Source of the DNA: an uncultured Colwellia sp.
GTDB taxonomy: Bacteria; Pseudomonadota; Gammaproteobacteria; Enterobacterales; Alteromonadaceae
Length of the DNA stretch: 64,000 nucleotides
NCBI GenBank assembly: GCA_913058395.1
Contig: CAJXQI010000017.1
Location: 1-64,000, forward strand
Direction of reading: 5' to 3'
Positions within the stretch are counted from its first letter, which is position 1. Each line of letters starts with the position of its first letter. The translations under genes were made by a program, and so were the position numbers. Below the pieces are notes generated by a model. The model saw only the letters and a program-made list of their open reading frames with translations. It was not told the origin of the DNA and did not search any database. Below, piece after piece: positions 1 through 12,428 of this stretch.

Positions 1-1043
1 AGGCCTAACCTACTTGTAATTAGAACTTTGTTTGGCAAAGGTATATCTTTTATATATTCCAGAACTGACTCATCTTTTATAGTTTCCAGATTATCAATAA
101 CAAGCAAAATCCCCTTTTCATTTGATTCAAATATCAAATCAACTGTACTTTCTTTTTCATCAATTGAAGCACCTTTCATTGATAGACCATAAATTTCAAT
201 TATACTGTCTAATAAGGTTTCATAGTTGTGAAAGCTAGGTTCAACTTTCTCTATACCACTTGCTGTAAGGTATTCCTCTTTCGATGATACCCAAATGACA
301 GAGTCAAAAAATGTCCTCTCTTGATAAATGAAATAATCACAAATCTTATGTGCAAGCGCTGATTTTCCTACGCCGCCAGCACCAATTATGGTTACAATCC
401 TATCCAAGTTATTCTTAATTAACTTCATTAACCGCTTTTGATCTTTTGCTCTACCTATAAACCCTCCATCAGGTGCATAATCACTATCGGGTAGATTATT
501 TAGACAAAATTCATCAGATGAAAAATTACTTACAAAAGAAACAGGAGTTTTTACTACAAGGTTTTGGTTTGGCTCAGTTATTTTCTGCAACAAATTATCG
601 AAGTCGTCATCTTTAATTTTCAATATCCTACAAATCTCTTCCGATAATTCCAGAAGAAGTTCAAAATCCATTTGAGAGAATGAGCTTTTGACGTGGGCAA
701 TTTGACATCTAAGAGGGTAAACTCTATCAACTAATTTTTTCAGCTCTGAAATAACTAAGGATGGAAAGTATTTTTGATAGTTTTTTTTATAAGCTAATAA
801 ATCAAAGATATCTGGAAAGTCAGTTTCATCTAGTACTTCTTCAATATTACTGTTAACAAGTGATTCACTACCTGACCTTTCCATGAATTTCGACTGAATA
901 CCTTGCGGTACCTCGTCTTCCCAGTTGTCACTAAAACAAATCATAATTGCTTTAGATACCTCTCCCCTCAAAAGCATTTCTAACCTAGAAATAACTGTAT
1001 ATCCATAATCTTTGATGGAAAAACTTAATACTGGTGATGACAA
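1..1043 (-). CDS. HEPN-NB-ARC STAND ATPase, probable antiphage defence protein (partial)
   Basis: Only the first 347 residues are visible; the gene runs off the left edge. Residues about 5-145 are all-helical and resemble the Swt1-like HEPN family, with a HEPN Rx4H signature RCQIAH at 112-117, the catalytic pair of HEPN ribonucleases. An NB-ARC module follows: FIGR at 195-198, Walker A GAGGVGKSA at 221-229, Walker B ILLVIDNLE at 312-320, and LITSR at 341-345. The start is TTG at 1043, because an in-frame TAG lies two codons upstream and AAGGAG sits six bases before the TTG. Known biology: STAND ATPases oligomerise on sensing an invader and switch on a fused effector. Inference: here an RNase effector causing abortive infection. 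The sensor part should be the unseen C-terminus. It sits behind replication genes of a mobile region, a common place for defence cargo. Confidence 0.85.
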   Translation of the reverse strand, partial: MSSPVLSFSIKDYGYTVISRLEMLLRGEVSKAIMICFSDNWEDEVPQGIQSKFMERSGSESLVNSNIEEVLDETDFPDIFDLLAYKKNYQKYFPSLVISELKKLVDRVYPLRCQIAHVKSSFSQMDFELLLELSEEICRILKIKDDDFDNLLQKITEPNQNLVVKTPVSFVSNFSSDEFCLNNLPDSDYAPDGGFIGRAKDQKRLMKLIKNNLDRIVTIIGAGGVGKSALAHKICDYFIYQERTFFDSVIWVSSKEEYLTASGIEKVEPSFHNYETLLDSIIEIYGLSMKGASIDEKESTVDLIFESNEKGILLVIDNLETIKDESVLEYIKDIPLPNKVLITSRLG

Positions 1044-1266
1044 GATCTACTCCTTAGAACACTAAAATCAATAATAGCCAAAAAATTTAATTCGATGATG
1101 ACATCTCATATACAGACAATAATAAAAACCATATATATTAAATAGTTAAACATTAAACTATAATCACCTTAGAGTGATAATTCAAGATATTTAAACCAAA
1201 ACACTGTTCATATTTTTTAGACTCCTTCATCAATACGAAATCAACAAAAGAAACTTGGATAATTGT

Positions 1267-1323
1267 GTTTAACTCCCCCTTTTATAGTTTTTTGTTTTTA
1301 TAAAAGGAAGAAGGGAGTTAAAC
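1267..1323. repeat. Inverted repeat downstream of the GpA-like rep gene
   Basis: GTTTAACTCCC at 1267-1277 is mirrored by GGGAGTTAAAC at 1313-1323. Inner TTTATA/TATAAA bases extend the stem around a T-rich loop. No run of T follows on the minus strand, so it is not an ordinary terminator for the rep gene. The GGGAGTTAAAC arm resembles motifs beside the divergent HUH promoters near 2990 and 3140. This suggests a replication origin, termination site or protein-binding site of the element. The rest of the 313-base gap (1044-1356) holds nothing else I recognise. Confidence 0.5.
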
Positions 1324-1356
1324 AGGGATAATAATATTAAGTCCGTTAGCCAATTA

Positions 1357-2955
1357 CTAAGTGGGTGCATTTTTAGTAACAATATCCATTAAGTTCATGC
1401 TTGACTTTTCAACTTCTTGTTCTTTCTTCTGTAGCTCGTAGCGCACAAATTTATACTTTAAACACCCTAAATCTACACCAACAATCCTTTTGGAGGTTTC
1501 ACCATATGCGTTTTCATATGATTCTTTCACATAAATAGAGTGATCTTGACTTTCTATTTTTTCAAGGAGCCTCAAAAACTTCGAAAACTGCCCTTTATCA
1601 TTCGGTTTATTTCTTGTCTGTGCAGTAGAAATAAGTTTCATCATTTCATGAAGCGAAATTGATGAGTTATTATCTATTTCTACAACCATTTTAGTTGTTC
1701 GGTTTCTTTCAATTTCACAATAACGGTTGAAAGCCCACTTCATGTTTTTTTTATAAATATCTTTCCATTTATTTGATTTGGCTTTATCTAATCTTTTGTG
1801 AGAGCTTTGCACTTTTTCCAAAAGCTTAGTTTGCAAAAACGTATTTCCAAACTCTGATTGCAACTGATTATATAGCTTTCTCAAAGTTCTCCATTTTGTC
1901 TTTGCAGACAGTATTCCAAACGTTTGATAAGTTCGCACTCCTAGAGCTGACTTCCATGCATCTATTTTCTCCAACGCTTCTGTGTCTTCAATTTTCTCCC
2001 CATTACTCTGAACACCATCGACACCTTCTCTGTAATCAACATTTTTCATTAAATATTTTGTCATGTATGTTGTTGGTGCTGCGGCATTATCATCTTCTTC
2101 TTTAGTTTTGATAAGTTCAATTTTTACAGCGTTTTTCGATTGATTAAAACCAAAATGTTTATTAGCTAACTCTGTGATTACACCTTCAATATTTTCCAAA
2201 CTTGCATACATTAATAGGTGCCAGTGAGGTGTACCATCTTTGTGTGGTTCAACAACTCGAAAACCAAAAGCATCACCTTCTGAGAACTTTATATTATATT
2301 GTGGCCTGCTAAGGTCACGTTTAAACGCTCCCCATCGCTTTTTAATGTATTCATGAGCAACTTTAGCATTCTTACCATTCCATTTCTTTTTACCTTTTGT
2401 TGGATTTGGGTGAAGGTAAGGAGGGGCTGTAGCCGTAATAAAAACAGCTCTAAAGCCCTTATCGCTTGCCATATGTTCCATTCCTAAACACATTAAATAA
2501 AGTTCACAAAATTTACTATGTGCACTGGTAGATAGCTCAGAAAGTGCAACAAATCCATTTGATGTAATGATACCCATATTATCCAAAAGACTTTGGTTGT
2601 GAGCGAGTCTCTGCTGACGTATTTTTAGCGTTGTTTCCCCTACATATGCTTTCCCACTGTTGCCTCCAACTTTTCCAGTCTTTTGCTCGTAATACAAACT
2701 CTCAGCAATAATTAAATCTAATAGGCGCCTTTTAATAAACTTCCAGTTTTTCAGCCTTTTTTTAATATTCTTCTTCTTAGGATCATAGAAATGAGGTAGC
2801 CAACCATCAAAAATGTCTTTGTATGATGGTTCTTGTGCAGTACAAGCGAATGCAATTGCTTTTGATGTATTGATAACTTCAGAAATAAGGTTTTCTTTAT
2901 CAAAAAAGAAAGACATTGATTTAGGAAGCATAGATTTATTAGGAGTATTTAACAT
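1357..2955 (-). CDS. GpA-like HUH rolling-circle replication initiator
   Basis: The 532-residue protein resembles the phage replication gene A family (P2 GpA type). Its HUH metal-binding motif HWH lies at residues 244-246 within GTPHWHLLMY. The paired tyrosines of this superfamily are in YMTKY (Y297 and Y301), which would nick and rejoin one DNA strand at the origin. The N-terminal 150 residues are basic and helical, as in GpA. The start ATG has AAGGTGA three bases upstream. It is divergent from a second HUH gene at 3176, and both share the 12-base leader AACTAAAGGTGA. Rolling-circle replication is known for this family. That it replicates an integrated element here is inference. No capsid or tail genes are visible, so a phage or satellite origin cannot be decided. 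Confidence 0.85.
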   Translation of the reverse strand: MLNTPNKSMLPKSMSFFFDKENLISEVINTSKAIAFACTAQEPSYKDIFDGWLPHFYDPKKKNIKKRLKNWKFIKRRLLDLIIAESLYYEQKTGKVGGNSGKAYVGETTLKIRQQRLAHNQSLLDNMGIITSNGFVALSELSTSAHSKFCELYLMCLGMEHMASDKGFRAVFITATAPPYLHPNPTKGKKKWNGKNAKVAHEYIKKRWGAFKRDLSRPQYNIKFSEGDAFGFRVVEPHKDGTPHWHLLMYASLENIEGVITELANKHFGFNQSKNAVKIELIKTKEEDDNAAAPTTYMTKYLMKNVDYREGVDGVQSNGEKIEDTEALEKIDAWKSALGVRTYQTFGILSAKTKWRTLRKLYNQLQSEFGNTFLQTKLLEKVQSSHKRLDKAKSNKWKDIYKKNMKWAFNRYCEIERNRTTKMVVEIDNNSSISLHEMMKLISTAQTRNKPNDKGQFSKFLRLLEKIESQDHSIYVKESYENAYGETSKRIVGVDLGCLKYKFVRYELQKKEQEVEKSSMNLMDIVTKNAPT

Positions 2956-2958
2956 AGT

Positions 2959-3167
2959 TCACCTTTAGTTGATTGAATTATAAACATGCTAACCCCTCCA
3001 TCTCTTATACTCAATTAGCAGAATTAAATAATTTGTTATTCCATTTGATTATACTAAGAATTTAATATATGATACAAATAAATACTGTACAAACATACAG
3101 CTAGTGACCGACTAGCAGTATTTCATACTGCGTCTAAGAGGGAGGAGTTAACAATAACTAAAGGTGA
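2959..3167. promoter_or_regulatory. Divergent control region between the two HUH genes, with hairpins
   Basis: The region separates rep (minus) from the mob-like gene (plus). AACTAAAGGTGA occurs at both ends in opposite orientation (2959-2970 minus, 3156-3167 plus) and supplies both ribosome binding sites. Further in, TAAGAG...GGAGG.GTTA occurs on both strands (about 2990-3007 minus, 3135-3152 plus). Two adjacent perfect hairpins lie at 3100-3116 (GCTAGT-gaccg-ACTAGC) and 3115-3131 (GCAGTAT-ttc-ATACTGC). Hairpins beside HUH genes are typical of nick sites, so this is a candidate origin or oriT. The actual nick site is not known. Confidence 0.5.
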
Positions 3168-3175
3168 GAATATTC

Positions 3176-4363
3176 ATGCCAGGCTATCAGTTCATACATA
3201 TTGAGACTTATTCAAGAGTTCCAAGTAAAAACAATAAAAAACAGAGTATTTTAGGTATAGTAAAAGAAGCTGAAAGGCATAGCACAGCGAGCTTGCATAT
3301 TGCTAACCCACAGCCTCCACTTTCTCTATATGGTGATACGCCATTAAAAATGGCTAAAAAGCTTATTAATACTTCAGAAAAGTGTGTTGATGCTATGGGG
3401 AGAAAGCTTCGTAAAGACGCGCAAATTTTACTCGCAGGGGTTGCCAGTTACCCAATTCCGACAGACTCCTTAGAATTTGATGATGATAATTTTAACGAGT
3501 GGCTTAGGTTAACACTTTCATTTCTAAAAAGTGAGTATGGTAACAACCTTAAAAGTGTAATAGGCCATTTTGGCGATGAACCATACAACCATGTTCATTT
3601 CTACTGCCACCCTTCCCCCTCCATAAAGAATACAATCAATATTCGAGATGTGCATATTGGCATGAAACAAAGAGATACTGTGCCAGACAAAGGAGAAGGA
3701 AGCGGTAAAAAACGCAGAAAGCTGTATAAAGATGCTATGCGCCAATTTCAAGACAGATATTATGAAAAAGTAGCAAAGCTTTGTGGTCAAAGCCGAATAG
3801 GTCCTAAGCGTAATAGATTGACGAGAAAAGAGTGGCGTGACGAGCAGCTATCATCAGAAAAACAAGCAGAGGCTTTGAAAAACATAAATAAATATGTTTT
3901 AGCAAAAAATGATGCCATTAAAGCAAAAAAAAATAATGCCCTGATACTACAAACGCTAAAAAAAGAAGAAATGATAGCAGAGCAAAAGCTTATGAATAAA
4001 ATAGCAGTAGAAAACGATAATTCATTCTTTAAATCAAAGAAAATTCAACATTTAATGCAGGTATTAAAAGATAAGAATAAAGAAAAATCGAAGATAAGCA
4101 AGAAACTCAAGACAATGTCCAATGAAAGAAATATTTTAGAAAAAAAATTAGAAGAGAAATCTATGGCAACAACGAGCTATCAAAAAGAAAATCAATTTTT
4201 AATGAAAAAAATCAGTTCTCTATTAAACACCCTAGATAAATATAAAAAATCAATTACCAGTTTAAATCTGAATTATTCAAAACTGGTTAATTTTATTAAA
4301 TCGGGAAATAGTATTCCATCCAGTTTCTTAAATACAAAAGTGGGGGGTACATATGAAAGGTAA
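3176..4363 (+). CDS. MobV/Pre-like HUH relaxase
   Basis: The 395-residue protein begins MPGYQFIHIETYSR. Its core motif HFGDEPYNHVHFY at 131-143 matches the HUH metal site of Mob/Pre plasmid mobilisation proteins (usually HFDE..PHLHF), with a Gly inserted and a Tyr-Asn before the final His pair. From about residue 210 the protein is Lys/Glu-rich and predicted coiled coil, as in MobV C-termini. ATG at 3176 is preferred because AAGGTGA lies eight bases upstream; an in-frame GTG at 3164 has a poorer site. It overlaps the next gene by 11 bases. A relaxase role is inferred from the motif; it could instead be a recombinase of the element. Confidence 0.65.
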   Translation: MPGYQFIHIETYSRVPSKNNKKQSILGIVKEAERHSTASLHIANPQPPLSLYGDTPLKMAKKLINTSEKCVDAMGRKLRKDAQILLAGVASYPIPTDSLEFDDDNFNEWLRLTLSFLKSEYGNNLKSVIGHFGDEPYNHVHFYCHPSPSIKNTINIRDVHIGMKQRDTVPDKGEGSGKKRRKLYKDAMRQFQDRYYEKVAKLCGQSRIGPKRNRLTRKEWRDEQLSSEKQAEALKNINKYVLAKNDAIKAKKNNALILQTLKKEEMIAEQKLMNKIAVENDNSFFKSKKIQHLMQVLKDKNKEKSKISKKLKTMSNERNILEKKLEEKSMATTSYQKENQFLMKKISSLLNTLDKYKKSITSLNLNYSKLVNFIKSGNSIPSSFLNTKVGGTYER

Positions 4364-4718
4364 TTTTATTAATTTTGATGATGCAAGTAGCTATTTAAAT
4401 CTAATGACATCATTTTCAACTAACAATTTCTATTTTTATGACTTTACTCAAAAGTTATCTTTATTATCGAAATTACTATTAGAGCTGTGTTTTCTAAAAT
4501 CTAGGGCTGAAGTACTATCAATACTAGATAGGTTAATATCTCAAGTCGAAAAAACTATTGATGAAAGTGAAACCGATTATACTCTGGTGCCATTATCTCC
4601 AAAACAGTCAGAAAAACTTACTAGCATTATTGAACAAGATCTTCATTTAGCTATTGAAAATAATGAGAATAAACTTACCAAAAATATTAATTTAGATTAC
4701 AATAATTTAGATTTTTGA
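4353..4718 (+). CDS. Orphan 121-residue protein of the mobile region
   Basis: I do not recognise this family. The start ATG has a strong GGGGGG ribosome site and overlaps the end of the mob-like gene by 11 bases, so the two are translationally coupled. The protein is acidic, has no signal peptide, and has a Leu-rich helical stretch at about 33-70 (KLSLLSKLLLELCFLKSR). The C-terminus is rich in Asn and Leu. It ends six bases before the tRNA-Arg gene, marking the edge of the mobile region. A partner protein for the relaxase is possible but unsupported. Confidence 0.6.
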   Translation: MKGNFINFDDASSYLNLMTSFSTNNFYFYDFTQKLSLLSKLLLELCFLKSRAEVLSILDRLISQVEKTIDESETDYTLVPLSPKQSEKLTSIIEQDLHLAIENNENKLTKNINLDYNNLDF

Positions 4719-4724
4719 TGTGCA

Positions 4725-4799
4725 GTCCCCTTAGTTTAATGGATAGAACGAGGACCTCCTAAGTCTTAGATACAGGTTCGATTCCTGTAGGGGACGCCA
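4725..4799 (+). tRNA. tRNA-Arg(CCU)
   Basis: A full cloverleaf can be drawn. The acceptor stem is GTCCCCT/AGGGGAC with CCA encoded. The D-arm holds TTAATGGAT. The anticodon loop CTCCTAA gives anticodon CCU, and the T-arm is ACAGGTTCGATTCCTGT. It closely resembles E. coli argW, a known integration target. It abuts the mobile region on its 5' side and is followed by a decayed tRNA 3' part at 4895-4946. A T8 run directly after CCA could act in termination. Confidence 0.9.
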
Positions 4800-4894
4800 A
4801 TTTTTTTTATTAAATTTTTAATATAATTTTGACACTACAACTGCAAACACAATCAAGACAAACCATTGATACAATTAGAGTTTAACGGGTCAAA

Positions 4895-4946
4895 GCAACC
4901 CTCTCCTAAGCTGCTGCTCCAGGTTCGAGTCCTGGTGGGGACGCCA
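4895..4946 (+). pseudogene. Decayed tRNA-Arg 3' part
   Basis: CTCCTAAG, a good T-arm (CCAGGTTCGAGTCCTGG) and TGGGGACGCCA are present, but no matching 5' acceptor strand or D-arm lies upstream and the anticodon stem does not pair. The T-arm and acceptor part matches the intact tRNA at 4725 except for about three bases. It looks like the displaced 3' end of a tRNA gene left by integration, or a decayed tandem copy. Since the two are not identical, a simple recent att duplication is unlikely. Confidence 0.6.
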
Positions 4947-5050
4947 ACAGGTTATCAATCATTTTAATTAACAACTTTTACCTTATTTAAAAACCTTTCA
5001 TAATTTACATTCAGCTATATTTGAAATACAGAATATAAAGCTATAGGCGT

Positions 5051-5540: not shown

Positions 5541-7520
5541 ATGCCGTCGCGTCAACAACTGGCCAATGCAATACGAGTTTTAAGCATGGATGCCGTGCAA
5601 AAAGCTAAATCAGGACACCCTGGAGCCCCAATGGGCATGGCAGATATCGCTGAAGTATTATGGCGTGATTTCTTAAAGCATAACCCAACAGATCCAAATT
5701 GGGCTGACCGCGATCGTTTTATTTTATCTAACGGCCACGGCTCAATGTTAATCTATTCATTGTTGCACTTGACTGGTTATGATTTACCAATTAATGAATT
5801 GAAGAACTTCCGTCAGTTACATTCAAAAACTCCAGGTCACCCAGAATACGGTTATACACCAGGTGTTGAAACAACAACAGGCCCATTAGGCGCCGGGGTT
5901 TCAAATGCTGTAGGTATGGCGATTGCTGAAAAAACTTTAGCGGCACAATTTAACCGTGAAGGTCATAACATTGTTGACCACAACACTTATGTATTTTTAG
6001 GTGACGGTTGTTTAATGGAAGGTATTTCACATGAAGCCTGTTCATTAGCGGGTACTTTAGGTTTAGGTAAGCTAATTGCATTTTGGGATGACAACGGCAT
6101 TTCAATTGATGGTGAAGTTGAAGGTTGGTTTACTGACAACACTCCTGCTCGTTTTGAAGCTTATGGTTGGCATGTCGTTAGTGTTGACGGCCACAACCCT
6201 GAAGCTATCGCTGCCGCAATAGTTGAAGCCAAGTCTATAACCGATAAACCTTCAATGATTTGCTGTAAAACCATCATTGGTTTTGGCTCACCTAATAAGG
6301 AAGGCACACATGATTGTCACGGTGCTCCATTAGGCGATGAAGAAATTGCGGCAACACGTGAAAAATTAAATTGGTCACACGCTCCTTTTGAAATTCCAAG
6401 CGATGTTTATGCTGATTGGGATCAGAAAGAAAAAGGTGGCGCAGAGCAGTCTAGCTGGAATGAAAAATTTGCAGCTTACCAAGCAGCTCACCCTGATTTA
6501 GCGGCTGAATATGAACGTCGTGTAATCAAAGGTGATTTACCTGCAGAGTTTGAAGAAAAAGCCAATGCCTACATTGTAGAGTGTCAGGAAAAAGCGGAGA
6601 ATGTTGCTTCTCGTAAAGCATCACAAAACACCATTGAAACCTTCGGTAAAATATTACCTGAATTATTAGGTGGCTCTGCCGATTTAGCTGGCTCAAACTT
6701 AACACTTTGGTCAGGTTCAAAAGGTATTCAAGACGACGCAGCCGGTAACTACATCTTCTACGGTGTACGTGAATTTGGTATGAGCGGCATCATGAACGGT
6801 ATTTCATTACACGGTGGTTTCATCAACTACGGCGCTACTTTCATGATGTTTATGGAGTACGCACGTAACGCAGTTCGTATGTCAGCATTAATGGGAATTC
6901 AAAACATTTTCGTTTATACCCATGATTCAATTGGTCAAGGTGAAGATGGTCCAACACATCAACCTATCGAGCAATTAACTAACTTACGTACAACACCAAA
7001 CATGGTGACATGGCGTCCAGCTGATGCTACTGAATCTGCGGTTTCTTGGAAGAATGCTGTTGAACGTCAAAATGCACCTACATCATTAATTTTCTCTCGC
7101 CAAGGTTTACCTGCGCTTAGCCGCAGCGCAGCACAAGTTGCTGATATTGCTAAAGGTGGTTACATCTTAAAAGACAGTGTTGGTACACCAGAAGTAATTT
7201 TAATCGCTACCGGTTCAGAAGTATCATTAGCATTAAAATCAGCTGAAGCATTAGGCGACCATGTTCGTGTTGTTTCTATGCCGTCTACTAACATTTTTGA
7301 CGCACAAGATGCTGACTACAAAGAATCTGTATTACCTGCCAACGTTACTAAACGTGTTGCTATTGAAGCTGCGCATACTGACTTCTGGTACAAGTATGTA
7401 GGATTCGGCGGTAAAGTTGTTGGCATGACTACGTTTGGTGAATCTGCACCAGGTAATGTATTACTTGAATACTTTGGTTTTACTGTTGAAAACGTAGTCA
7501 ACACAGTAAATAGCTTATAA
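5541..7520 (+). CDS. tkt: Transketolase
   Basis: The cytosolic, thiamine-diphosphate-dependent enzyme moves two-carbon units between ketose and aldose phosphates in the pentose phosphate pathway and supplies erythrose 4-phosphate. At 659 residues it is close to E. coli TktA (663). Catalytic His26 (SGHPGAPMG) and His66 (SNGHGS) are present, as are the GDG...N cofactor motif at about 154-184, VREFGMSG with the catalytic Glu, and [19 protein letters not shown] lies six bases before the ATG. It heads a co-directional series with epd, pgk and aldolase, in which epd and tkt share erythrose 4-phosphate. Confidence 0.97.
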
Positions 7521-7554
7521 ATCAAAATGATTTAATTAAGTCTTAATAATTTGT

Positions 7555-7633
7555 AGCCAGTTAAGTTTACTTAACTGGCTATTTCATTCACTAGAGATAT
7601 CAAATGACTATATTTTTAGTGAATGAAATAGCC
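7555..7633 (+). promoter_or_regulatory. Two overlapping alternative hairpins between tkt and epd
   Basis: Hairpin 1 is a perfect 11-bp stem AGCCAGTTAAG/CTTAACTGGCT (7555-7580) with loop TTTA. Hairpin 2 is a perfect 17-bp pairing of GGCTATTTCATTCACTA (7577-7593) with its complement at 7617-7633. They share GGCT at 7577-7580, so in RNA they compete. Neither is followed by a good T run. It may be an attenuator-like or processing element between tkt and epd. Confidence 0.55.
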
Positions 7634-7659
7634 ACAGACACCAATAAGATCAAACTATA

Positions 7660-8673
7660 ATGTCAATTAATATAGCAATAAATGGCTTCGGAAGAATCGG
7701 GCGTAATGTCGCTCGTGCGCTTTACGAAAATGCCAGAACCAATGATTTTAAGCTAGTTGCTATTAATGAACTTGCTGAACCAGAAGGCATTGCTCATTTA
7801 CTAAAATATGACTCTACTCATGGTCGCTTCCCTTTCGCTGTTGAACAATGTAATGGTGAACTTTTTATTGCCGGTGACAAAATAGCCTTAAGCCATGAAA
7901 GCGAAATATCTGCCCTGCCTTGGCAACAACTTGATGTTGATATTGTTATTGATTGCACAGGTAAATTCGGTAATCAAGAAGACGGCCAATTGCATATTAA
8001 GCAAGGGGCAAAAAAAGTATTGTTTTCACACCCTGGCGCTCATGATCTTGATGCCACCATCATTTATGGTATCAATCATCAACAGCTAACCGCAGCAGAA
8101 AAAGTGGTTTCTAATGGCTCATGCACAACCAACTGTGTGGTACCGGTAATTCAAGTACTAGATAAAGCCTTTGGCGTTGAAAGTGGCGCTATTACCACAA
8201 TTCACTCTTCCATGCATGATCAACAAGTTATTGACGCTTATCACCCAGACTTACGACGCTCGCGTGCAGCAAGTCAATCAATAATACCGGTTGATACTAA
8301 ACTTGCCGCAGGTATAGAAAGAATTTTGCCTAAGTTTGCCGGTCGCTTTGAAGCGATCGCAGTGCGAGTACCCACTATCAACGTAACCGCAATGGATTTA
8401 AGCTTAACGCTTTCAAGTGATGTAACCATTAGCGACATAAACCAAGCAATACTTGCTGCGCAAAATAATGGCTTAGCTGGAATTCTTGGTTACACCACCG
8501 AGCCTTTAGTCTCTATCGATTTTAATCATGACCCGCATTCTTGCATTGTTGATGGCAACCAAACGCGCGTCAGTCATAAACGTTTAGTAAAATTACTTAT
8601 TTGGTGTGATAACGAATGGGGTTTTGCTAATCGTATGATCGATACGGCTTATGCTATGGCACAAGCAAACTAA
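7660..8673 (+). CDS. epd: Erythrose-4-phosphate dehydrogenase
   Basis: This is a 337-residue GAPDH-superfamily enzyme. The N-terminal Rossmann motif is [15 protein letters not shown], and the active site is SNGSCTTNC with Cys155. The subfamily stretch [20 protein letters not shown] and the long loop after it follow E. coli Epd rather than GapA. It oxidises erythrose 4-phosphate to 4-phosphoerythronate, the first step of DXP-dependent pyridoxal phosphate synthesis. The position tkt-epd-pgk matches the known epd-pgk-fba order of gammaproteobacteria. GAPDH activity as the main role is possible but less likely. Confidence 0.92.
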
Positions 8674-8765
8674 ACAAGATTTAACAATAGTCGACAATAT
8701 TTCGATAATGTAACTCAATTAAGCAAAATACAAATTTAGTTAAACTTTACCAACAGGAAATAAAC

Positions 8766-9944
8766 ATGTCAGTAATTAAAATGACGGATTTAGCACTGGA
8801 AAATCAACGTGTATTGATTCGTGAAGATTTAAACGTTCCGGTTAAAGATGGCAAAATATCATCTGATGCTCGCTTAAGAGCCGCTTTGCCAACCCTTAAA
8901 CTTGCCCTAGAAGCTGGCGCAAAAGTGATGGTAATGTCGCACCTAGGTCGCCCTACTGAAGGCGAATATAATGAAGAGTTTTCATTACAACCTGTTGCAG
9001 ATTACTTAGCAGCGGCTTTAAATGCCCCAGTTAGATTAGTTAAAGATTATCTAGATGGCGTTGACGCTAAAGTTGGTGAATTAGTTATTTTTGAAAATAT
9101 TCGTTTTAATATTGGCGAAAAGAAAAACGATGAAGCTTTATCGAAAAAGCTAGCGGCCCTTTGTGACATATTCGTTATGGACGCATTTGGTACCGCACAT
9201 AGAGCTCAAGCAAGTACTCATGGTGTTGCTAAATATGCACCTACAGCCTGTGCTGGCCCTTTACTTGCCGGTGAATTAGCCGCGCTTTCAAAAGCACTTG
9301 ATAAACCAGCCCGCCCATTAGTAGCCATTGTTGGTGGCTCTAAAGTATCAACTAAACTTACTGTTTTAGAATCATTAGCTGGTGTTGTTGACCAACTTGT
9401 TGTTGGTGGTGGTATTGCCAACACATTTATAGCCGCTGAAGGTCATAACGTTGGTAAATCATTATTTGAAGCTGACTTAGTTGCAGAGGCGAAACGCTTA
9501 ACTCAGCAAGCAAAAGACAATAATGGCTCAATCCCTGTGCCTAGCGATGTTGTTGTTGGGCAAGAATTTTCTGAAACAGCGGTTGCAACACTTAAAAATG
9601 TGAGCGACGTTGCCGATGGCGACATGATTTTTGACATCGGTCCTGAAAGCGCAAAAGCATTAGCCGATATCATTGCCAATGCCGGTACTATTGTTTGGAA
9701 TGGCCCTGTTGGCGTATTTGAATTCGACCAATTCGGTAAAGGTACAGAGTTAATTGCTAAGGCTATTGCCGACAGTAGTGCTTTCTCAATTGCCGGTGGC
9801 GGTGATACGTTAGCAGCCGTTGACAAATATAACATTGCTGACAAAGTATCTTATATCTCTACTGGCGGTGGTGCTTTCTTAGAGTTTTTAGAAGGCAAGA
9901 AATTGCCCGCTGTAGAAATCTTAGAAGCTCGTGCAAACGCCTAA
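8766..9944 (+). CDS. pgk: Phosphoglycerate kinase
   Basis: The 392-residue cytosolic enzyme of glycolysis and gluconeogenesis exchanges phosphate between 1,3-bisphosphoglycerate and ADP. The N-lobe substrate motifs are visible: [13 protein letters not shown] near residue 19, SHLGRP near 60, and FENIRF. The hinge and C-lobe nucleotide motifs follow: GGSKVSTKL near 188, NGPVGVFE near 319 and IAGGGDT near 345. AGGAAAT precedes the ATG. It lies 92 bases after epd and probably shares its transcript. Confidence 0.97.
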
Positions 9945-9994
9945 TAAGTATAGCGTTCTATAGCATATGCGGCATTAAAACGTCGTAACAATAT

Positions 9995-10032
9995 AACGCT
10001 GGTTTGGCTTAAGGCTAAATCAGCGTTTTTTT
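9995..10032 (+). terminator. Terminator after pgk
   Basis: AACGCTG pairs with CAGCGTT around an inner TTT..AAA stem, followed by seven T. It separates pgk from aldolase, so aldolase has its own promoter in 10033-10358. Confidence 0.75.
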
Positions 10033-10358
10033 ATCGCTGAAATTAATGAGCAAAGTAAACATTAATGATCAGCGAGCAAAAAATTTTACCGCTTCTCTCA
10101 CTTTATTTTGTAGTAAAATTACAAAAATAATCAAGTAAAACTGATGAGAACAATCAGTAACCCCCACTTATTTACGTAATTAATATACAAAGCTGATAGC
10201 TAGGCAATATTTACCTTTTTTCAGTAAAATTCAGCTGTTTTTTTCTAGTGCAAATAGTTAATTTCATCTGATATAATTACGATACGAAAGGGCTAAGTTT
10301 CACAATGAAACTTCTTTAGTTCAATTTTGTCACTATTTACAATCACAGGAGTTAGTTC
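10033..10358 (+). promoter_or_regulatory. Leader and promoter region of aldolase
   Basis: This AT-rich gap lies downstream of the pgk terminator. A perfect 8-bp hairpin AAGTTTCA-caa-TGAAACTT lies at 10295-10313, about 45 bases before the aldolase ATG, probably in the 5' leader. A possible -10 (TATAAT, 10272-10277) lies just upstream of it. No regulator site is recognised with confidence. Confidence 0.35.
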
Positions 10359-11423
10359 ATGGCTTTAGTTTCTATGCGCCAAATGTTAGATCATGCCGCC
10401 GAGTTTGGTTACGGTATCCCAGCTTTTAACGTTAACAATTTGGAACAAGTAAGAGCTATCATGCTTGCCGCTAATGAAACCAACAGTCCTGTTATTTTAC
10501 AGGGTTCTGCGGGTGCAAGAGCCTATGCAGGTGCACCATTTTTGCGTCATTTGATTTTAGCCGCAATTGAAGAGTTTCCACATATTCCGGTAGTTATGCA
10601 CCAAGATCACGGCACATCTCCTAGTGTTTGTCAGCGTTCTATCCAATTAGGCTTTTCATCAGTGATGATGGATGGTTCTTTAATGGACGATGGTAAAACA
10701 CCTTCTAGCTACGAATACAATGTTGATGTTACTCGTCGTACTGTTGAAATGGCTCACGCTTGTGGTGTATCAGTTGAAGGTGAATTAGGTTGTTTAGGCT
10801 CTTTAGAAACAGGTGAAGCTGGTGAAGAAGACGGTATCGGTGCTGTTGGTAAACTTACCATGGACCAAATGCTGACTGACCCTGAAGAAGCGGCTGATTT
10901 TGTGCAAAAAACTCAAGTTGATGCCTTAGCAATTGCTTGTGGTACTTCACACGGCGCTTATAAATTTACTCGCCCACCTACTGGCGATATTTTAGCGATT
11001 GACCGTATTAAAGCGATACACAACCGTATCCCTAACACGCATTTAGTTATGCATGGTTCATCTTCGGTACCACAAGACTGGTTAGCCGTTATCAATGAAT
11101 TTGGTGGTAAAATCCCTGAAACTTACGGTGTACCTGTTGAACAAATTCAAGAAGGTATTAAAAACGGTGTACGTAAAATCAATATAGATACTGACTTACG
11201 TCTTGCATCAACAGGTGCAGTACGTCGTTTCTTAGCTGAAAACCCAAGCGAGTTTGACCCACGTAAATTCCTAAAAGCATCTACTCAAGCAATGTCAGAT
11301 ATTTGTAAGGCACGCTACGAAGCTTTTGGTACGGTTGGCCAAGCATCAAAAATTAAACCTATTTCATTAGACAATATGTTTATGCAGTACTCTACTGGCA
11401 AACTTGATGCACTAATAAAGTAA
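10359..11423 (+). CDS. fba: Class II fructose-bisphosphate aldolase
   Basis: The 354-residue zinc enzyme splits fructose 1,6-bisphosphate into dihydroxyacetone phosphate and glyceraldehyde 3-phosphate. Zinc ligands are seen in MHQDHGTS near residue 80-86, and later His residues in GTSHGAYKF and MHGSSSVP. The sequence follows the class IIB (Calvin-cycle subtype) family rather than E. coli FbaA, notably [16 protein letters not shown] and the [13 protein letters not shown] stretch. CAGGAG precedes the ATG. It completes the tkt-epd-pgk-fba neighbourhood but is separated from pgk by a terminator. Confidence 0.95.
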
Positions 11424-11442
11424 GTTCCCAAAATACTTAATT

Positions 11443-11468
11443 AAGGCGACCTTTTGGTCGCCTTTTTT
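11443..11468 (+). terminator. Terminator after aldolase
   Basis: AAGGCGACC-tttt-GGTCGCCTT is followed by a T run, 20 bases after the stop. Confidence 0.9.
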
Positions 11469-11597
11469 GTATTCAATCTAATTCCAGTTACTTTTTGACA
11501 TATTTGTTAATGAATCGCTTATTTTATTAACAATTTAGTGATATTTATCCACCTATTCATTATAATTTGCCCTTTATAACATTGCTTAGGGTAAACA

Positions 11598-12428
11598 ATG
11601 GAAACTATTCAAAACTGGTTTGTAGATAACCAAACAATGCTTTTAGATTTTGCAATTAATCTACTAGTAGCTTTAGCTATAATATTCATCGGTAAATTTG
11701 TTGCGAACTTGATTCGTGGCGGTGTCGTAAAAGTAATGCGTCATAAAGGTATGGATGATGCAATAATCTCTTTTATTAGTAGTCTACTGTACGGCATGTT
11801 GTTCTTTATTGTTATTGTCGCTGCCGTTTCACATTTAGGTTTTAACACCTCATCTCTTGTTGCCATTGTTGGTGCTGCTGGTTTAGCTATTGGCTTAGCG
11901 CTGCAAGGTTCATTATCAAATTTCGCTTCTGGTGTATTACTGATTATTTTCAAGCCATTTAAATCTGGCGATTTTATTGAAGTTTCAGGTGTTGCCGGTA
12001 TTGTTGAAGAAATTTTAATATTTTCGACACAATTAAGAACTGGTGATAATAAAACAGTCATTATTCCAAATGGTTCAATTACCAGTGGTACCATCACAAA
12101 TTATTCAACGAAACCGACAAGAAGAATAGATTTGGTTATTGGCGTGAGTTATGATGCCGACCTTGCAAAAACCAAAGCAATATTGCTTGACTTAGTTAGT
12201 GCTGATGAACGTGTACTAAAAGATCAAGCAGTAACAGTTGGCGTATCAGAACTTGCTGATTGTAGCGTTAACTTCGTGGTAAGACCTTGGGTAAAATCTG
12301 CTGATTACTGGCCAACTTACTTCGATTTATTACAAAAAATTAAAACTGAATTGGACAACGAAGGAATCGAAATCCCATTCCCACAATTATCTATTCATAT
12401 GAATAAAGAGGAAAACAATGAGTCATAA
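11598..12428 (+). CDS. mscS: Small-conductance mechanosensitive channel MscS
   Basis: The 276-residue inner-membrane channel has three predicted helices (about 14-40, 58-80 and 85-115). The pore helix shows the Gly/Ala pattern GAAGLAIGLALQGSLSNFASG of MscS, followed by the beta domain (FKSGDFIEVSGVAGIVEEI) and IPNGSITSGTITNYS. In the known family it opens under membrane tension to release solutes after osmotic downshock. It overlaps the next gene by 11 bases, so they are co-translated. Confidence 0.93.
   Translation: METIQNWFVDNQTMLLDFAINLLVALAIIFIGKFVANLIRGGVVKVMRHKGMDDAIISFISSLLYGMLFFIVIVAAVSHLGFNTSSLVAIVGAAGLAIGLALQGSLSNFASGVLLIIFKPFKSGDFIEVSGVAGIVEEILIFSTQLRTGDNKTVIIPNGSITSGTITNYSTKPTRRIDLVIGVSYDADLAKTKAILLDLVSADERVLKDQAVTVGVSELADCSVNFVVRPWVKSADYWPTYFDLLQKIKTELDNEGIEIPFPQLSIHMNKEENNES

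Follow-up and report, generated by a model that had tools for sequence, protein, structure and literature searches.

The window analysed here is a 64,000-nt stretch of DNA from an uncultured Colwellia sp. (genome G000; contig CAJXQI010000017.1, hereafter C17), and it opens inside an integrative element that sits in a tRNA-Arg(CCU) gene. Window position 1 is the first base of C17, and the rest of the element lies at locus L003 on a second contig, C25. We interpret this element as very likely an 8.3-kb integrative mobilizable element (IME) that uses tRNA-dependent integration; it seems to have cut the sole tRNA-Arg(CCU) gene found in the genome and to have replaced it with its own copy. The features that carry this interpretation are as follows.

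1-1043, minus strand: N-terminal part of a STAND NTPase cargo gene, continuing in frame at L003:13222-15258 (C25)
1357-2955, minus strand: REP, a GPA-type HUH rolling-circle initiator (Pfam Phage_GPA, PF05840, E = 3.3e-31; phrog_91, E = 4.9e-49)
3100-3116, plus strand: candidate origin of transfer (oriT) hairpin upstream of MOB, with core TAGTGACCGACTA at 3102-3114
3176-4363, plus strand: MOB, a MobV-like relaxase whose C terminus is long and helical (the list of open reading frames, ORFs, has a GTG start at 3164)
4353-4718, plus strand: ORF4, 121 aa, overlapping the end of mob and modelled as helical at low confidence
4725-4799, plus strand: replacement tRNA-Arg(CCU), complete, 75 nt, element-borne
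4800-4902, plus strand: element stretch of 103 bp from the replacement tRNA to the crossover core
4903-4911, plus strand: attR core CTCCTAAGC in the host tRNA anticodon loop, with the same 9 bp at L003:11802-11810 (attL)
4903-4946, plus strand: disrupted 3' half of the host tRNA-Arg(CCU) gene, whose 5' half including the core is at L003:11770-11810

The first 55 bases of C17 are identical to the last 55 bases of C25, and the STAND reading frame stays open across this overlap; from these two observations and the gene order, we infer that C25 and C17 are adjacent. Both ends of the element, which the initial annotation had asked to be located, are now defined, with 8,306 bp between the cores. The right end is marked by the truncated second tRNA at 4903-4946, which had been overlooked. 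The GC content of the element is 0.330, compared with 0.379 and 0.392 in its flanks. The insertion point is the anticodon loop of the host tRNA-Arg(CCU) gene, and the two ends have just the 9-bp core in common. Rejoining the host halves yields a 76-nt tRNA-Arg(CCU) identical to the intact gene of a relative (G004), and ARAGORN finds no tRNA spanning either junction.

A tyrosine integrase is encoded at L003:11937-13136 on C25 (PF00589, E = 4.7e-16), adjoining attL. The initial annotation had described a possible rolling-circle integrative element without a visible integrase, and the integrase seemed missing because the window starts where its contig starts. Integrase-free rolling-circle integration was dropped once the adjoining contig revealed the integrase, which makes integration by the HUH enzymes unnecessary. 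What stands of that proposal is that the element is integrative, encodes two HUH enzymes and lies at tRNA-Arg(CCU). A prophage past the left edge, which would have spoken for a different kind of element, is also ruled out, as the 15 kb seen there hold flagellar genes.

The insertion site lies between flgT and tkt, the same position as in relatives, and the element is absent from this site in all 16 same-genus genomes examined, whereas a shared set of genes would be expected to sit there in every relative. A native-type 76-nt tRNA-Arg(CCU) occupies the site in 14 of these 16 relatives. The other two, G005 and G014, carry a different tRNA-Arg(CCU) at the flgT-tkt site without the element. In G005 a foreign tRNA-Arg(CCU) occupies the native site (L015, 2618-2692), and in G014 a damaged tRNA-Arg remnant, starting at 1288, stands beside a foreign tRNA-Arg(CCU) at the native site (L011, 1288-1472). 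These foreign tRNAs are possible scars of lost elements. One relative, G006, has about 4.8 kb of extra DNA separating tRNA-Arg from tkt (L034, about 6829-11650), with ORFs that by eye resemble RHS/YD-repeat tails and a Y1-type transposase.

The replacement tRNA differs markedly from the gene that it stands in for. It is identical to the host gene at 58 of 75 aligned positions and to the tRNA at the site in G005 at 74 of 75. Patterns for the 3' part of tRNA-Arg(CCU) match at two places in G000, namely the replacement tRNA and the host 3' half, so the replacement is the sole intact tRNA-Arg(CCU) found in the genome within the limits of the patterns used. This is suggestive of a need for the element's tRNA after integration. 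In the anticodon stem, 7 of 10 positions differ between the replacement and the host gene. Stem divergence as an escape from the integrase was considered and is unsupported as a rule, since the replacement in another such element (G071) differs at merely 2 of 10 positions. The element's own substitute for the host tRNA gene broken by integration is its unusual feature. The initial annotation had placed the novelty in the two different HUH enzymes; both are present, but the element IMESag-rpsI, as described in part of PMC5704250, already pairs a MobV relaxase with a Rep_Trans protein.

The same design recurs with related integrases. An integrase profile (A2), built from the sequences of G000, G396 and V. 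barjaei (three of the eight elements treated here), gives strong matches in 5 of 394 genomes of the order and, among 196 genomes from the genus of V. barjaei, in 3. Across 369 genomes of the class, A2 matches G000 only, together with one weak unrelated match in G600 (7e-20); the core is absent from the 3.9 kb seen there, and G600 was left out of the eight. The eight elements are those of G000, G396, G071, G025, G226, G775 (V. barjaei), G831 and G876. In all eight, the 5' half of the host tRNA-Arg(CCU) stands beside the integrase, and the host 3' half and a complete tRNA-Arg(CCU) that differs from the host's are also present. Rejoining the halves, done for the seven elements other than that of G831, gives a tRNA-Arg(CCU) of 75-77 nt each time, and the seven tRNA-Arg elements measured have cores of 9-16 bp and sizes of 7.8-44.5 kb. 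In G831 the parts are split: contig C141 holds the 5' half with the integrase, and C177 holds a complete 77-nt tRNA together with the host 3' half; the ends of these contigs have just a few bases in common, so their link is unproven. C141 also has an additional, odd 79-nt tRNA-Arg(CCT) call. The complete tRNA lies near the far end in most elements and is internal in G876; relative to the halves it is inverted in V. barjaei, and it is inverted on C177 of G831 as well.

A tRNA-Leu(CAA) version of the design is found in V. europaeus (L090), with both halves, an 8-bp core and a size of 8.5 kb. Its halves rejoin to an 85-nt tRNA, and its integrase is just distantly related (phmmer, 1.1e-6). In addition, contig C24 of G000 holds the end of a second mob/ORF4 element at tRNA-Leu(CAA) (L047, 8953-10438), where the 5' half of a broken host gene and an entire replacement tRNA are seen. 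Only this end is visible, and C24 stops in a short tandem repeat before the rest of the element. A scan of viral contigs with the integrase gave 47 pattern matches and zero relatives, and searches of phage and plasmid records returned distant tyrosine recombinases only (13 and 3 records, respectively).

The presence of MOB and REP in the eight elements was judged from the neighbourhoods seen, which cover the G831, G025 and G226 elements in part; G071, G025 and G226 were also checked by whole-genome searches at stated thresholds. MOB is found in five of the eight (G000, G396, G775, G831 and G876) and REP in two (G000 and G396). As both are patchy, the constant module is the integrase plus the replacement tRNA, not the HUH pair. 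MOB relatives occur on other contigs of G226, and a REP relative occurs elsewhere in the genome of G071. An automatic test for the two-half tRNA signature at 81 mob loci (L088-L168) found both halves only in L090. At L091 the test gave the 3' half only, and the 5' half was located via the core; L120, L124, L144 and L150 look canonical. The outcome of this test indicates that the design follows certain integrases, not MOB.

We next consider the two HUH enzymes, both of which had been called correctly in the initial annotation. The REP translation contains HWH and YMTKY (YxxxY), which are the HUH motif and the paired tyrosines of GPA-type initiators, and the phrog_91 family that it matches is labelled "nicking at origin of replication". 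Among the 394 genomes of the order, its nearest relative is in G396. For the divergent MOB, ATG 3176 is the better start. Its best PDB profile match is MobM of pMV158 (E = 2.1e-4), and its model (pLDDT 86.8) has seven Foldseek matches at E <= 1e-3, all of them MobM chains, with 12-15% identity and TM-scores by target of 0.54-0.61. Residues H131, D134, E135, H139 and H141, in the conserved H-x-H region, are invariant across 28 sequences. MOB has relatives in 69 of the 72,556 plasmid records searched and no match at E <= 1e-5 in 50,697 phage records; of the 20 plasmid matches listed, 13 bear the annotation of a plasmid recombination or mobilization protein. A MOB scan of viral contigs gave one locus, which carries a P4-like primase. 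MOB relatives in Aeromonas (L050, L051 and L052; also L126, L133 and L134) lie in elements that, as read from the sequence, have a P4-like primase, with a tyrosine integrase where seen; there the relaxase is paired with a different replication module.

The hairpin upstream of MOB has a core motif, TAGTNACNGACTA, that occurs once in the window against 0.03 expected. Across the 81 mob-bearing loci there are 44 occurrences, compared with 0.68 expected, the latter being a rough equal-base estimate for a set in which some loci are near-duplicates. The hairpin lies within 600 bp upstream of MOB in 27 of the 81 loci. Positions 1-5 of its arms covary, with 0 of 1000 shuffles reaching the observed pairing, in a statistic that draws on 36 distinct contexts and ignores their kinship. 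This conserved, covarying hairpin beside MOB is likely to be an oriT, and it may resemble the oriT of pMV158.

The STAND gene, also named in the initial annotation, encodes a protein of 1008 aa in all. Its N terminus has a weak HEPN-like match below the Pfam cut-off, NB-ARC is above the cut-off (E = 1.1e-9), and the part on C25 has TPR repeats and two cold-shock domains. A PADLOC scan covered ten chosen proteins from six elements, leaving out the three larger elements. Seven of the ten proteins, from five other elements, gave strong matches: a type I methyltransferase and restriction enzyme in G396, a type II methyltransferase in V. barjaei, PtuA and PtuB in G831, PDC-S25 in G876 and HamB in V. 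europaeus. No PADLOC match was obtained for two proteins, one each from G876 and V. europaeus. The STAND part matched TPR and cold-shock models only, and weakly, and its N-terminal part has a weak match to mad8 (1.6e-5). Judged from its architecture and the company it keeps, the STAND gene is probably anti-phage cargo.

ORF4, the orphan gene noted earlier as stopping six bases short of the tRNA-Arg(CCT), does so (ORF 4353-4718, tRNA 4725-4799). It has a weak alignment and a poor model (pLDDT 52.5), and its position makes a relaxosome accessory protein possible. The following smaller features complete the locus.

1266-1324, no strand assigned: 12-bp perfect inverted repeat, its arms 35 bp apart, lying between the cargo gene and rep
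2959-2970, minus strand: 12-bp leader AACTAAAGGTGA, directly upstream of rep and identical to the mob leader
3156-3167, plus strand: 12-bp leader AACTAAAGGTGA, directly upstream of mob
4675-4703, plus strand: sigma-70-like promoter match TTACCA-17-TACAAT within the last part of ORF4, positioned to transcribe the replacement tRNA

The inverted repeat might serve as a terminator or form a structure at a replication origin, and the identical, opposed leaders before the rep and mob start codons suggest possible common control. Promoter matches overall are at the level of shuffled sequence, with 16 found and 19.1 expected.

At the sequence level, the assignment to tRNA-dependent integration is supported by the anatomy of the element, the empty site, the sole-copy status by pattern and the recurrence of the design. 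The integrase stands beside an att site in a tRNA gene, the core is short, the tRNA is unrestored, and a tRNA of the same isotype is carried. The temperate phage of tRNA-dependent lysogeny proper is not seen here, as none of the five recognised genes is structural and MOB has no match in the phage records. The element encodes an integrase of its own, its ends are defined and its site is otherwise conserved; it also has a relaxase and a conserved hairpin. These are the marks of an IME, and no mating-pore gene is found among the element's ORFs. In the mechanism that we propose, the integrase would recombine attP with the tRNA gene via the short core, and the element's own tRNA would then sustain AGG decoding after the host gene is broken. 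Unless the element excised cleanly, its loss would deprive the cell of this tRNA-Arg(CCU), so that the cell may depend on the element. After excision, the GPA-type initiator would replicate the circle, and the MobV-like relaxase would nick the hairpin oriT at 3100-3116 for transfer via a helper conjugation system. The two HUH enzymes would in this way divide the labour between replication and mobilization.

Several observations weigh against this interpretation. The C25-C17 join depends on the 55-base overlap and synteny. Pfam Mob_Pre does not match MOB at E <= 1, and MOB is therefore termed MobV-like. Of the 69 plasmids that hold a relative of MOB, MOB-suite types 52 as non-mobilizable, 16 as mobilizable and 1 as conjugative. 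Either this speaks against mobilization as the role of MOB, or the family is divergent and escapes the typing. The upstream hairpin is on the strand of MOB in 9 of 27 loci and on the other strand in 18 of 27, and 54 of the 81 mob loci have no hairpin within 600 bp upstream. MOB is absent from three and REP from six of the eight integrase elements. A pattern for tRNA-Arg(UCU) gave no match in G000, an outcome that may reflect the pattern, which is unvalidated. The cell may need its tRNA-Arg(CCU), and the element may excise, replicate and transfer; these are predictions from sequence.

The MOB-suite typing would also suit a phage satellite, in which the GPA-type initiator replicates the element during infection by a helper phage, movement is by packaging rather than conjugation, and the relaxase is a relic or has a replicative role. 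REP belongs to the phage GPA family, and satellites are commonly small and often have an integrase and defence-type cargo. We nevertheless regard a satellite as unlikely, because the five recognised genes include no capsid or packaging gene, a scan of four window proteins (the integrase lying outside it) gave no structural PHROG match above noise, MOB is distributed among plasmid and not phage records, and the oriT-like hairpin is recurrent beside MOB. Similarly improbable, in our judgement, is that the locus is an immobile relic in which a foreign tRNA simply took over: G005 and G014 indicate that takeover without the element can occur, but all five genes are open here (STAND across the contig overlap) and both att cores are intact. 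A canonical island that restores its target, with the second tRNA fragment as a decayed tandem tRNA gene, is contradicted by the empty-site comparison and is highly improbable. Ordinary 3'-end duplications of one tRNA do occur at several other mob-bearing loci, and tRNA islands restore the gene according to the relevant part of PMC4383910. However, the fragment here joins the 5' half exactly, and together they equal the tRNA of the intact relative; the ends have only 9 bp in common, with a tRNA at neither junction; the complete tRNA is unlike the host gene; and the other seven integrase elements have the same design.

A tRNA-dependent IME would extend this mode of integration from phages to mobilizable elements and islands with defence-type genes. 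It would offer a simple, testable reason why such islands may resist loss, and a way for bacteria to gain foreign tRNA genes. The design also leaves a searchable signature, two halves of one tRNA around an integrase plus a complete, different tRNA of the same isotype, which tools expecting a restored target tRNA may misread. More broadly, we tentatively propose, as a possibility somewhat short of an even chance, a family of gammaproteobacterial elements that destroy a host tRNA gene and supply the substitute, so that the host comes to depend on them. Such addiction-like behaviour would shield defence-type cargo from deletion and would repeatedly swap in foreign tRNAs, with G005 and G014 as hosts that would have lost the element but retained the tRNA.

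We found no report of this design in IMEs in the literature searched, a limited collection that does not prove absence. The systems closest to it are compared here as far as the portions of the papers cited describe them. Like the present element, IMESag-rpsI combines a tyrosine integrase, a MobV relaxase and a rolling-circle Rep (PMC5704250). It belongs to Firmicutes, has a Rep_Trans protein and targets the 3' end of rpsI, whereas the element here has a GPA-type Rep and targets a tRNA anticodon loop; a replacement tRNA is present here, and none is mentioned for IMESag-rpsI in that portion. The tRNA-gene islands of Islander (PMC4383910) likewise use tyrosine integrases, and anticodon-centred att sites are common among them (2083 islands). 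Those islands restore the target tRNA from an attP fragment, whereas here both halves remain broken, and the V. barjaei element, in which the tRNA is inverted relative to the halves, would fail the Islander orientation filter as it is described. In S. meliloti, tRNA-Leu(UAG) is inactivated by prophage integration and replaced by a prophage tRNA (PMC11476347). A foreign tRNA gene stands in for an inactivated one there as it does here, and some islands carry tRNA genes; the cases are mainly prophages, the tRNA-bearing islands are read as prophage-derived, and no relaxase-bearing IME is mentioned in the part concerned.

The closest parallel is tRNA-dependent lysogeny in actinobacteriophages such as Fionnbharth (Guerrero-Bustamante & Hatfull, 2024; PMC10865867), the prevalence of which beyond these phages is left open there, with mention of a Lactobacillus prophage. 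Both systems have a tyrosine integrase, an attB in a host tRNA gene, a tRNA left unrestored and a cognate complete tRNA carried by the element, and the core is about 10 bp in the actinobacteriophages and 9-16 bp in the seven tRNA-Arg elements. Unlike those phages, the carriers described here are IMEs and islands of Gammaproteobacteria, not recognisable phages; some have a relaxase, an oriT-like hairpin and defence-type cargo, and the need for the tRNA is a prediction from sequence. The mechanism is known in phages, and its apparent use by relaxase-bearing, defence-carrying elements of Gammaproteobacteria would be the new part.

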